Source: Bacteroidales bacterium
GTDB taxonomy: Bacteria > Bacteroidota > Bacteroidia > Bacteroidales > UBA932
Reading direction: 5' to 3'
DNA length: 64,000 nt
Assembly (NCBI GenBank): GCA_017634595.1
Contig: JAGBNC010000017.1
Location: forward strand, 1-64,000
The first letter of the stretch is position 1, and the number at the start of each line of letters is the position of its first letter. Shown here in pieces: positions 3,032-50,992 of the stretch. The notes beneath the pieces were generated by a model. The model was not told where the DNA came from. It did no database searches and saw nothing but the letters and a program-made list of their open reading frames with translations. The translations under genes and the position numbers were made by a program.

Positions 3032-3083
3032 TAAAATTGGTTATTATGAGTCTTTAATATTAAGACCATAATAACCAATTTTA
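3032..3083. repeat. 52-bp near-perfect palindrome upstream of the lipoprotein/sigma/SusCD operon
   Basis: Seventeen-base arms (start TAAAATTGG, end CCAATTTTA) flank the perfect inner palindrome GTCTTTAATATTAAGAC, so the whole block pairs with itself except for one extra A at 3049. It ends eight bases before the ATG at 3092 and starts 18 bases after the preceding stop. There is no T-tail on either side, so it is not an ordinary terminator. It may be an operator, an RNA hairpin that limits readthrough or translation, or a small mobile palindrome. Confidence 0.85.
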
Positions 3084-31528: not shown

Positions 31529-34500
31529 ATGAACCGGCGCGTGCTCTCACTTGCGCTGGGCCTTCTACTGACGGCCCTCCCGGCGGCAGCCCAATTCTAT
31601 ACCATGGGCAGCGAGCCGGCGAGGGTCGCTTGGTATCATATACGCACTACGGACTACGATGTGATCTACCCCAAGGGGCTGGACTCGCTGGCCCGCGTAT
31701 ATGCATCTATCCTGGAAAGGGTCAAAATGCCCGTCGGAGCCACTGCGGGATATTATCCTAACCAATTGTACAAGAGACAGATGCCTGTGGTGCTGCACCC
31801 GTGGACCGCAAACTCCAACGGCGTAGTGGTGTGGACACCACGGCGCATGGAACTGCTCACCACCCCCGACGCCGTGGCCCCCATGCCCCAGCCGTCAGAA
31901 GAGCAGCTGGTGATCCATGAGAGCCGCCACGTGGCACAGATGCAGTTTGTAAACGAGAAACGCTTCAAGCCGGTGTCGTACATTCTGGGCGAGCTCACCG
32001 CCGGAGCGGCAGCGGCGCTGTACTGCGGCCCGGCATTCTTCGAAGGAGACGCGGTGGCGGCGGAGACGGAACTGAGCCATGCCGGACGCGGACGAAATGC
32101 AGCCTTCCTGGAGTACTTCCGTGCCGCTTTCCGCGAGGGCGATACCCGTGACTGGTGGCGCTGGCGCTATGGTTCGCTAAAATACTTCACCCCCGACTAT
32201 TACAAAGTCGGCTACGTCACCATGGCTGGAATGCGCAGCGTGTACGGCGTGCCCGATTTCACTGCACGCTACTACAAGCGCCTGTCGGAGAGCAAGTGGC
32301 CGCTCCCCTTCTTCAACATGCAGGGCACTGTCAGGGACGTATCGGGCAAACGTTTCCGCGAGGCCTTCGGGGAGATATGCGACACACTGCAGAGCCGCTG
32401 GAGCAGGGACGAAGCCGCCCGCGCCCCCTTCATGCCGTCTGAGGCCATCACCAAGAACCATCGTCACTTCACCGAATACAGTTCTGCATGCTATCTGGAC
32501 GGCGCCCTGTACTGCGTACGGGGAGGCAGGACGGCGGCACCGCAGCTGATACGCATAGGCGAAGACGATAAGGAGACGACGGTCGCGCCCTTTGCCTACA
32601 GCACTTCCGCACTCAAGGAAGACAATGTCAGACACCGTATCTACTGGAGCGAAATTGTGCCCGACCCGCGATGGGAGCTTAAGTCCTATTCGGAAATATG
32701 GTACTTCAGCACTGACGGCAAGCGTCAACGCTTGAGCAGACGCACAAGGTGGTACAACCCCACTCCGTCGCCCGACGGTGCCACGGTGTCCGCCACGGAA
32801 TTCCCTGCTGAGGGCGGTTCGGCGGTGGTGCTGATAGATGCTGAAAGCGGAGCGCAAATAAGGAGGATCAAAGCTCCCGACGGGATGCAATTGTCTGAGA
32901 CTGAATGGATAGGCTCAGAGCTATATGCAAGTGCCGTGACTGCCGAAGGCCTTGGCTTGTACAGGGCACAGGGAGCCGGCTGGACAAGGGTGCTGGACTT
33001 AGGTTATGTCAACGTGAAAGGGCTCTTCGTCCATGACGGGAGGCTATGCTTCACTTGTGACTTGAGGGGCGTGGATGAGTTATATGCTTTCGATCCCGCT
33101 TCGGGGAGCACTGTAAGGCTGAGTTCGTCGGCCCAGGGCGGCAATGGGTACCGTTTCTCACCGGAAGGGGATCTGGTATTCTCGGTCCTCAGCTCCAGAG
33201 GCAGGAATCTGCATGTTACCGGCTCCGTGGATCTGCCGGCACCGGCAGAGGCCGACTTCTCTAAGCCCCACCGCTACGAATTCGCTGAATCGCTCAGCCT
33301 CGCTTCAGCTTCGGAGGCAGAGGAACAGGACGTCGCTTCGCGACCCTTCCCTAAAGGGCCCCTCCCTCTTCCGGTGCCGAGGGTGGCACGGTCCTGTTCC
33401 TCTGCCTCCGGATCTGAAGCGATAGCCGAACCTCGGCCCTACAGCCGTCTGGGCAACATCTTCCGTTTCCACTCCTGGGCCCCTATATACGTCGATTACA
33501 ACGCCATAGCCGACATGAGCTTCGAAAGCCTCACCACCACCGCAGGCCTCGGAGCCACTGCCTTCTTCCAGAACCATCTCAACACCATGACCGGCGTAGT
33601 AGCCTACAACGCGGCGCCGGCCGAAAACAGCTGGGTACACAAAGCCGAGACCAAATTCACCTACTCAGGCTTGGTGCCGGTAATCGAAGCTACGCTCTCG
33701 CTCAGCAGCGCCAACCCCAGCCTCTATTTCCTGGAAACAGGCTTTTCCAAATTCTCTCATTACGTATCGCTGTCCAGCGAAAAGATAGATTACGTGCCCT
33801 CTTTCAACGCCGGTATCAAAGTCTATGTCCCGCTGCGTTTCAACTCCGGAGGATGGTACCGCGGGCTTGTCCCGCAGCTCAACTGGTCGCTGTCCAACAG
33901 CTTATTTACCCACGGCAGCCTGGCTCCCATGAACCGTTTGTCGCTGAGTCTCAGGGGCTACGCCGTCAGGGCAACGCCACCTTCACGCATATATCCCACC
34001 CTGGGAGGTGGACTCGAGGCCGGATGGAGCGGCAGGCCCTGGGCCCAGAATATCCTGTCGTCTTGCGCCTACCTCTACGGCTACACATATTTGCCGGGAC
34101 TGATGGACACCCACGGAATACGCCTGAGCGCCACTGTGCAGATGCCCACTTCACAGGCTTTGTTCAACGAGCGCTACGCCGCGGTGCTGCCCAGAGGCAT
34201 GGCTGCTTACAAGGACCTGCCGTCCCGCTATGCTGGGTATAAGTTCCAGAGCCGCATAAGCGCCGACTACGCCTTCCCGTTCGCACCGCTCGACTGGTCG
34301 GGAATGGGCCCCGTGGCATATCTTCGCAATCTTGAGTGCACCCTGCACGGAGACTTCTCCTACTTCAAAGATAGTAACAGGCAGAGCCGCCTGGGCAGCG
34401 TAGGGGCCGACCTTTGCGCCGTGCTGGGCAACCTGCTGTGGATCCCCGACGATACCCGCTTGGGTGTAAGCTATTATTACAATATCGGCGCACCCAGGGG

Positions 34501-34546
34501 AGAATCCCCCCACTACTGGGGCGCCGTATTTAACGTGAGTTTCTAA
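31529..34546 (+). CDS. large secreted HExxH zincin with propeller-like middle and outer-membrane barrel C-terminus
   Basis: 1005 residues with signal peptide (cut near LPAAAQ). An N-terminal gluzincin-like domain contains HESRH (His130, Glu131, His134), with Glu172 in FFEGDA as a possible third ligand. The middle (about 320-590) has repeated beta-propeller-like strands (SYSEIWYFSTDGKRQRLSR, DLRGVDELYAFDPASG). The C-terminus (about 645-1005) is beta-barrel-like (YFLETGFSKFSHYVSLSS, LSLSLRGYAV), ending VFNVSF. Residues about 591-631 are a low-complexity insert rich in Ser/Pro/Glu encoded by a palindromic repeat. Predicted to be outer-membrane-anchored; peptidase activity unproven. 10 bases after galK. 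Its stop is 12 bases from the convergent SGNH gene. Confidence 0.75.
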   Translation: MNRRVLSLALGLLLTALPAAAQFYTMGSEPARVAWYHIRTTDYDVIYPKGLDSLARVYASILERVKMPVGATAGYYPNQLYKRQMPVVLHPWTANSNGVVVWTPRRMELLTTPDAVAPMPQPSEEQLVIHESRHVAQMQFVNEKRFKPVSYILGELTAGAAAALYCGPAFFEGDAVAAETELSHAGRGRNAAFLEYFRAAFREGDTRDWWRWRYGSLKYFTPDYYKVGYVTMAGMRSVYGVPDFTARYYKRLSESKWPLPFFNMQGTVRDVSGKRFREAFGEICDTLQSRWSRDEAARAPFMPSEAITKNHRHFTEYSSACYLDGALYCVRGGRTAAPQLIRIGEDDKETTVAPFAYSTSALKEDNVRHRIYWSEIVPDPRWELKSYSEIWYFSTDGKRQRLSRRTRWYNPTPSPDGATVSATEFPAEGGSAVVLIDAESGAQIRRIKAPDGMQLSETEWIGSELYASAVTAEGLGLYRAQGAGWTRVLDLGYVNVKGLFVHDGRLCFTCDLRGVDELYAFDPASGSTVRLSSSAQGGNGYRFSPEGDLVFSVLSSRGRNLHVTGSVDLPAPAEADFSKPHRYEFAESLSLASASEAEEQDVASRPFPKGPLPLPVPRVARSCSSASGSEAIAEPRPYSRLGNIFRFHSWAPIYVDYNAIADMSFESLTTTAGLGATAFFQNHLNTMTGVVAYNAAPAENSWVHKAETKFTYSGLVPVIEATLSLSSANPSLYFLETGFSKFSHYVSLSSEKIDYVPSFNAGIKVYVPLRFNSGGWYRGLVPQLNWSLSNSLFTHGSLAPMNRLSLSLRGYAVRATPPSRIYPTLGGGLEAGWSGRPWAQNILSSCAYLYGYTYLPGLMDTHGIRLSATVQMPTSQALFNERYAAVLPRGMAAYKDLPSRYAGYKFQSRISADYAFPFAPLDWSGMGPVAYLRNLECTLHGDFSYFKDSNRQSRLGSVGADLCAVLGNLLWIPDDTRLGVSYYYNIGAPRGESPHYWGAVFNVSF
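33300..33422. repeat. 123-bp compound palindrome inserted in frame in the HExxH/barrel gene
   Basis: Left arm 33300-33331 and right arm 33391-33422 are 32-base inverted copies (TCGCTTCAG outer, a three-base mismatch, CGGAGGCAGAGG and CAGGAC inner). The 59-base middle holds three small hairpins in a row: GTCG/CGAC, CCCTT/AAGGG and GTGCC/GGCAC. The length is 41 codons exactly, so the reading frame survives. It encodes the low-complexity segment between propeller and barrel. Confidence 0.85.
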
Positions 34547-49887: not shown

Positions 49888-49992
49888 GCTTCCGATTCCG
49901 AGAGGCCGACTGCGGGACCTTTGGCTCCCGAAAAGGGACGGGACCCACGTAGTGGGGAGGCGTCCCGCAGTCGGCCTCTCGGAATCGGAAGC
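49888..49992. repeat. 105-bp compound palindrome with perfect 31-bp arms
   Basis: Left arm 49888-49918 and right arm 49962-49992 are exact inverted copies of 31 bases (outer GCTTCCGATTCC, inner CTGCGGGAC). The 43-base middle contains two further perfect hairpins, TCCC/GGGA (49927-49939) and CCCAC/GTGGG (49944-49956). A related, decayed copy lies at 21265-21319. No transposase, and no T-run to make it a terminator. Confidence 0.9.
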
Positions 49993-50566: not shown

Positions 50567-50992
50567 CTACATAGACCTGTCGTCAAGATGCTTCCAGAGA
50601 CGCCACATCAGGGCGCCCCAGCCAAGAAACAGGAGTAGGTAAACCCAGAATGGCAGACGATCTGAATAGACGTCCCAGTCCAGGGTCTTTTGGTAGTCGG
50701 GGATGTCGGCATAGTAGTAGGCGCCGGCCCCGAAGTCAAGGTCAGGGTTCAGCCCAAGGCCGTTAATCATGATATACACGGCCGCCGCCAGCACCAGCAC
50801 TCCCACCACAATTGCCGCAACGCTGCCAAACGAGACGGATGCTCCTGGCCGAGCCTGACCCTTACGAATGTGAGCTTGGGAGCTGTAGTCTTCGGCGGTG
50901 ACGGGAGAGACGGATGCTCCTGGCCGACCTTGGCCCTTACGAACGGGAGGTCGGGAGCATCCGTCTCTCCCATCACCATCAAAATGCTTCAT
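50567..50992 (-). CDS. small two-helix membrane protein with repeat-derived N-terminus
   Basis: 141 residues. The N-terminal 55 residues are two copies of a 25-residue unit (RKGQGRPGASVS and RKGQARPGASVS) encoded by tandem palindromic DNA. The rest is AAIVVGVLVLAAAVYIMINGL (membrane helix 1), a short acidic loop, LPFWVYLLLFLGWGALMWRLW (helix 2) and a basic tail. I do not recognise the family. The ATG overlaps the YeiH stop as TGATG, supporting this start; the original protein may have begun near residue 55. 147 bases separate it from yraN. Confidence 0.6.
   Translation of the reverse strand: MKHFDGDGRDGCSRPPVRKGQGRPGASVSPVTAEDYSSQAHIRKGQARPGASVSFGSVAAIVVGVLVLAAAVYIMINGLGLNPDLDFGAGAYYYADIPDYQKTLDWDVYSDRLPFWVYLLLFLGWGALMWRLWKHLDDRSM
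50832..50977. repeat. tandem 75-bp repeat with embedded palindrome inside a membrane-protein gene
   Basis: GAGACGGATGCTCCTGGCCGA occurs at 50832 and 50907, and similarity continues through CCCTTACGAA, so the period is 75 bases (25 codons). The second copy lies in an inverted repeat: 50897-50930 pairs with 50948-50977 (outer GGTGA-GGGAGAGACGG, inner CGACCT) with one mismatch and a four-base TGGC bulge. Confidence 0.85.

Follow-up and report, generated by a model that had tools for sequence, protein, structure and literature searches.

An open reading frame for 1005 amino acids (positions 31529–34546, plus strand) in the 64,000-nucleotide stretch of Bacteroidales DNA analysed here (the window) contains a long palindrome at 33300–33422, raising the questions of what this palindrome is, how it came to lie within a gene, and why its two arms match. 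A sequence-only reading of the window had described an in-frame palindrome of 123 bp with 32-nt arms, and both the complementarity of the arms and the predicted fold agree with that description. Specifically, the left arm (33300–33331, plus strand) and the right arm (33391–33422, plus strand) comprise 32 nt each, lie 59 nt apart and are 94% complementary, the right arm being the reverse complement of the left save at two positions. The RNA fold of 33290–33432 has a free energy of −84.8 kcal/mol, compared with a mean of −52.0 kcal/mol for 200 shuffles (z −8.0), none of which folds as well (0/200). A scan of the window for palindromes with a score of at least 16 and a spacer of at most 140 yields four long palindromes, this one included, and third-order Markov shuffles (n = 5) yield none. 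The palindrome lies in frame within the host gene, where its 41 codons specify LASASEAEEQDVASRPFPKGPLPLPVPRVARSCSSASGSEA.

The host gene carries an N-terminal HExxH motif, which the earlier reading had noted and which is found as HESRH at 31916–31930; the 'propeller' and 'barrel' parts assigned by the same reading could not be confirmed, the gene having no match in Pfam at E ≤ 0.01. The linker between the motifs RYEFAE and FHSW is 69 aa long in the window gene versus 38–49 aa in 13 orthologues. These 13, including three linkers (G072, G183, and G218) delimited by eye, come from 21 orthologous loci, the other eight of which could not be measured with the motif used. Neither the core of the palindrome nor a similar inverted repeat is seen in the linker strings inspected from the 13 orthologues, and among these 13 measurable of 21 loci no distant orthologue carries the segment without a palindrome. 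The proposal of an in-frame insertion is therefore upheld, the palindrome being absent from all 13 measured orthologues. The prediction that orthologues would lack exactly residues 591–631 or so is not, because the net linker gain is 20–31 aa, versus the 41 codons of the palindrome. A second genic copy, at locus L040, shows a net gain of about 30 aa (counted by eye). Both gains are smaller than the whole palindrome, which implies either that some of the native linker has disappeared or that one of the arms is native. The best explanation of these comparisons, which concern sequence, is that the segment lengthens the linker and would be read through as part of it.

The earlier reading was right that the palindrome is an insertion, but it is not a single one; rather, it belongs to a dispersed family. 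The central core (33332–33390, plus strand, 59 nt, with the core strand as written) is common to the family, while the left arm is private to the window copy. A core of ~60 nt occurs at 12 places in the source genome, window copy included (self-genome query, E ≤ 1e-3); a search with the segment finds its centre at 11 further places, together with five weak matches of no clear kind. Each of the 11 other copies has its own pair of arms of 22–35 nt, near-perfect within a copy and dissimilar between copies, and a search of the genome with the arms of all 12 gives no other match at E < 0.06. An origin of the arms from elsewhere in the genome was accordingly rejected, the best unexplained match being 18 nt long (E 0.06). 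In the DNA collected, 229 matches represent 193 distinct copies, of which 157 have an arm score of at least 16, the 36 copies below this score being excluded from arm-length counts; arms measure 25–29 nt in 87 of the 157 and are perfect in 74. The palindromic element is a dispersed family of ~110–130 bp, in which a long stem, mostly of 25–29 bp and perfect or nearly so, encloses a ~60-nt core.

By BLAST, the core is found in 20 of the 37 genomes searched from the genus (source included) and in 0 of 24 other genomes of the order. A covariance model (R1), trained on 22 of the 34 copies whose arms reach 20 nt, matches 14 copies in the source genome and 10, 12, 16, and 22 in four relatives, and has zero matches in a further genus genome (G253). 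Of the 60 model matches in relatives, 30 were extracted as loci, and flanks were searched for 12 of these 30. Among 295 genomes drawn from the order, the model matches five: the source, one from another genus of the family, and three from other families. An exact core pattern occurs in at least 120 stretches of named genomes, and among the 80 listed all are titled Bacteroidales or Bacteroidia; many record titles among the matches listed name ruminant hosts. Carriage by phages was rejected, as the exact core pattern has 0 matches in viral contigs.

Further copies lie in open frames of unrelated proteins, including proteins that we take, from their motifs, to be AroB-, MtaB-, GH92-, and methyltransferase-like. 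The AroB-like copy adds 39 aa relative to two orthologues, and the methyltransferase-like copy adds 37 to 41 aa relative to four; these gains approximate the whole palindrome. At four other sites, relatives lack the core and both arms (three relatives for L176, three for L184, two for L172, and one for L186, in alignments by eye), and the filled sites hold some 5–15 additional non-palindromic bases. No clear target site duplication is seen by eye at seven aligned sites. At the other three sites the comparison is less clear: an arm-like stretch of 13 nt persists at L170 in one relative (G418), a different hairpin is present in the relative at L177, and L174 is diverged in one relative and filled in another. 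Taken together, these comparisons demonstrate that the copies are insertions.

Some loops and linkers carry palindromes in several species. In the linker of the MtaB-like protein (loci L048, L118, L113, L114, and L116; genomes G034, G078, G087, G098, and G009), the element is present in two species, and palindromes without the family core are present in three more species; variable linkers seem to collect palindromes. At loci L077 and L036, a stretch translated as AERSEAS, probably a different short repeat found in many bacteria, occurs in the MtaB-like linker of G005 and inside the GH92-like copy of G033. In two close species, elements occupy the same gene loop in opposite orientation and with different arms (L040 in G023 and L101 in G071); these elements, whose core 3′ identity is 0.47, are probably independent insertions.

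Alignment of 102 copies to the covariance model (102 matches from 97 chosen loci) defines a common structure, consisting of the outer stem, two hairpins (HP1 and HP2), and two crossing stems (S1 and S2). In the window copy, HP1 (GTCGC-TTC-GCGAC) spans 33332–33344, HP2 (CCC-TAAA-GGG) spans 33349–33358, S1 (33364–33383) pairs CCCTC at 33364–33368 with GAGGG at 33379–33383, and S2 (33375–33388) pairs TGCC at 33375–33378 with GGCA at 33385–33388, all on the plus strand. As S2 crosses S1, simultaneous formation of both stems would make the core an H-type pseudoknot. The three chained hairpins of the sequence-only reading are present in the fold of the single copy, but for the third, this pseudoknot is the better reading across the 102 copies.

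In the 102 copies, 95.7% of paired cells are complementary, compared with 79.1% in shuffles and 41–58% when the structure is slid; double changes number 474 versus 134 in shuffles, and the covariation score is 0.44 versus 0.12. The alignment was fitted to a model that includes the outer stem, HP1, HP2, and S1, with S2 outside the model. S1 shows changes from UA to GC (5), from UA to CG (1), and from CG to UA (4); because the exact pattern dictates the S1 letters and most of the S2 letters in the loci retrieved with it, evidence for the S1 changes comes from copies obtained in other ways. The first pair of S2, the 5′ side of which falls in free positions of the exact pattern, is UA in 44 copies, GC in 40, and AU in 14. 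In 125 of 165 copies, HP1 comprises five base pairs and a 3-nt loop, while HP2 has a near-invariant closing CCC/GGG and an inner part that differs in length and sequence among copies (by eye). Thus, the HP1 stem and the pseudoknot covary. In Rfam, nothing in window positions 32800–33900 exceeds the gathering threshold; the match to mir-4776, at 32 bits against a gathering score of 97, was taken as a generic hairpin match, and membership of an Rfam family was rejected. Copies average 1.67 open frames of three on the core strand, compared with 1.25 on the opposite strand and 1.08 in base shuffles, indicating mild avoidance of stop codons in the element.

How the arms evolve can be followed where copies share a site. 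Comparison of the flanks of 165 copies with an arm score of at least 14 gives 87 shared-site pairs, with flanks 71–97% identical; in 58 the cores have the same orientation and in 29 they are inverted. Of the 87, 69 reach a core 3′ identity of 0.85, and 16, which may represent independent insertions, fall below 0.7. When each copy is used once, 29 pairs at 21 sites remain (20 in the same orientation and 9 inverted), in which 192 arm changes are two-sided and 37 one-sided; sliding the arm partner by 1 gives two-/one-sided counts of 112/182 and 109/188. A stricter set with core 3′ identity of at least 0.7 comprises 22 pairs, 8 of them inverted, with 113 two-sided and 32 one-sided changes. As copies were picked by arm score (≥14 or ≥16), a choice that favours paired arms, these ratios are upper bounds, and the inverted pairs include L040/L101, despite its likely independent insertion. 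Five of the inverted pairs agree at 19 or more left-arm positions and have a core 3′ identity of 0.91 or higher; for these, a flip of the core in place is the simplest account. The arms thus change yet stay self-complementary, and the core flips at shared sites.

We consider it probable, on balance, that the family is a structured palindromic element akin to Rickettsia palindromic elements (RPEs) and miniature elements (MITEs), whose arms are kept matched and whose core is flipped by template switching, with selection acting on the folded core. The element would arrive complete with its arms, moved in trans by an enzyme; polymerase template switching within the palindrome would then copy one arm onto the other and at times invert the core. 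Arm homogenisation and spacer inversion are reported outcomes of template switching between inverted repeats in the portions of the literature consulted (PMC8604942, PMC8794818). Template switching requires no dedicated enzyme. It explains the arms and the flips and does not explain why the core is conserved amid drifting flanks, which calls for selection; the folded core would be maintained by it, perhaps as RNA. Genic copies that happen to lie in frame within a tolerant loop or linker would survive and simply be translated.

The arms bear on whether the element arrives whole. Near-identical cores at different sites have a mean arm identity of 0.36 (35 pairs), compared with 0.78 at shared sites (11 pairs), so arms that move with the element would have to diverge fast. 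Such unrelated arms on near-identical cores, together with the site-specificity of arms that match nothing else in the genome, the net gain of roughly core plus one arm in the window gene and L040, and the arm-like stretch kept by G418 at L170, would be expected if only the core inserts and the arm pair is made on site, by snap-back copying of adjacent DNA (an inverted target duplication). We nevertheless regard on-site formation as rather unlikely, because at L176, L184, L172, L186, the AroB-like gene, and L028 the gain approximates the whole palindrome and neither arm looks native. The arms also bear marks of common descent. In G576, which belongs to another family, 9 of 11 copies have one arm sequence (most of them also with some common flank), and across copies the arms share a weak positional motif (G-rich, TAT, AAACC; ~8 bits summed by hand), suggesting that the arms move along with the element and afterwards change in a concerted way.

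Two further explanations dispense with template switching. If the copies were structured RNAs with a function, or a mobile element that moves via RNA, arm compensation could be purely selection on RNA pairing, as the pseudoknot covariation and the preservation of the core in most shared-site pairs despite their diverged flanks might suggest; this appears improbable, since a strand-specific RNA would hardly be expected to have its core inverted in 9 of 29 pairs or to lie randomly oriented to genes, nearly half of the copies (74/157) have perfect arms, and the bias among arm mismatches is limited to one class. Alternatively, the copies could be ordinary decaying selfish repeats of the REP or MITE type, alike through recent common origin and subject to neither selection nor correction after insertion. 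Remnants and decayed arms do exist, for example the G071 copy and the 36 of 193 copies scoring below 16, but core and pairing persist at shared sites though flanks diverge by up to ~29%, and two-sided arm changes outnumber one-sided changes by 192 to 37 (113 to 32 in the stricter set), making simple decay very improbable. A bolder reading, which we hold only tentatively and think doubtful, is a mobile element of a new class, the heritable unit of which would be the pseudoknotted core as RNA or single-stranded DNA; the 25–29 bp stem would be needed as a shape and be free in sequence, and each insertion would carry or build private arms and could invert in place.

The mismatches within arms offer weak evidence on the role of RNA. 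On the core strand, A·C mismatches outnumber G·T mismatches (40 versus 16, p 0.0018), and the excess falls in a single class, left A/right C, with 32 cases in 113 copies, compared with 8 for each of the three remaining transition classes. Two positions account for 13 of the 32. Tolerance of G·U pairs in an RNA of the other strand is weakened as a cause, the excess being confined to one class and in part to two positions, and equally likely causes are a preference for certain sequences and a mutation bias specific to one strand. Orientation relative to genes, based on crude gene calls, is balanced between co-directional genes (29 versus 29) and inside ORFs (30 versus 35), and copies are rarer in divergent gaps (7) than in convergent gaps (21). 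Random orientation makes a role in host mRNA unlikely; the element might be transcribed by itself or pass through a single-stranded stage when it moves. A function as transcription terminator was rejected, because copies lie inside genes and in random orientation.

No mobiliser was found among the two candidates searched in 41 genomes, as matches to neither Y1_Tnp nor RVT_1 track the presence of the element. A reverse transcriptase was rejected as driver: RVT_1 occurs in 15 of the 41 genomes, is absent from the element-bearing G005, G015, G016, and G023, and is present in G013, which has no element match. Y1_Tnp occurs in 31 of the 41 (E ≤ 0.001), is absent from the element-bearing G012, G014, and G022, and is present in G006, G007, G010, G020, G021, and G024, all without the element by BLAST. 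Weak Y1_Tnp matches occur in many genomes of the genus, mostly in ORFs of ~290–370 aa and up to six per genome (e.g. G003:C92:234919), and among the matches and copies listed none lies within 10 kb of an element (by eye).

The sequence-only reading had pointed to RPEs, and for behaviour the parallel holds. RPEs are described, in the parts of the sources consulted, as ~150-bp palindromes dispersed in frame within unrelated genes and translated as an extra peptide (PMC10969869), which lose repeat identity over time (PMC6649704). The Bacteroidales palindrome, compared with these descriptions rather than with RPE sequences, is likewise dispersed and in frame inside unrelated genes. It differs in that its arms stay matched while changing sequence and differ between sites, and in its core inversion and pseudoknot, which are absent from the RPE descriptions compared. 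Palindromes in genes of nematomorph mitochondria are coding inverted repeats with arms that evolve in concert (PMC6649704); unlike in the Bacteroidales element, both of their arms encode conserved protein regions, and no dispersed family with a common core figures in the description compared.

REPs of the GTAG and CGTC superfamilies and their dimers are also small palindromes, some of them intragenic. CGTC REPs, as far as the portion of the source consulted describes them, have 8–9 bp stems, 4–5 nt loops, mostly a CCA tail, and, like the present element, no dedicated transposase (PMC3733652). Membership of either superfamily was rejected, as the cores lack the tag, the 8–9 bp stem, the 4–5 nt loop, and the CCA tail described there; unlike REPs, the element has no GTAG tag and places a hairpin with a 5-bp stem and 3-nt loop (HP1, in its usual form) inside a long stem. 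With MITEs, such as Correia elements, which are reported to invert (PMC10969869, in the part consulted), the element shares non-autonomy and inverted ends. Unlike in MITEs, the ends are not common to copies in the genus, arm identity reaching at least 0.8 in 14 of 11980 non-orthologous pairs; common terminal inverted repeats, as in MITEs, are found only in G576 (9 of 11 model matches). The seven sites aligned by eye show no clear target duplication. The earlier reading knew of no such description in Bacteroidales, and a targeted literature search, with most subscription papers outside its scope, likewise found none.

With 10 to 22 copies in each of five model-matching genomes of a genus for which at least 400 genomes exist, the family provides a bacterial system for following arm homogenisation and spacer inversion of long palindromes across evolution. 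It also shows palindromes seeding new in-frame protein segments, which annotation should treat as insertions and not as conserved protein. If the core does work as RNA, it would constitute a structured RNA family, the window copy of which has no Rfam match.

The other three palindromes of the window differ in their relation to the family. The palindrome at 49888–49992 (minus strand) has perfect 31-bp arms and a shortened core of 43 nt, matches the model with 23.6 bits (E 1.9e-5), and is probably a diverged or shortened family member, judging from these matches; its core is without the GAGGGTGGC part, and no ORF of at least 100 aa with a start codon spans it. The palindrome at 50897–50977, with 24-nt arms and a 33-nt spacer, lies near the start of a minus-strand ORF of 141 aa (50567–50992), and no resemblance to the family core was seen in it. 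The palindrome at 3032–3083, an AT-rich perfect stem of 17 bp around an 18-nt spacer, resembles an ordinary hairpin. Finally, the opposite strand of 33343–33366 reads GGGAGGGGCCCTTTAGGGAAGGG, with four G runs of at least three G each, an arrangement that is similar in many copies, and these runs could form a G-quadruplex as an alternative fold.
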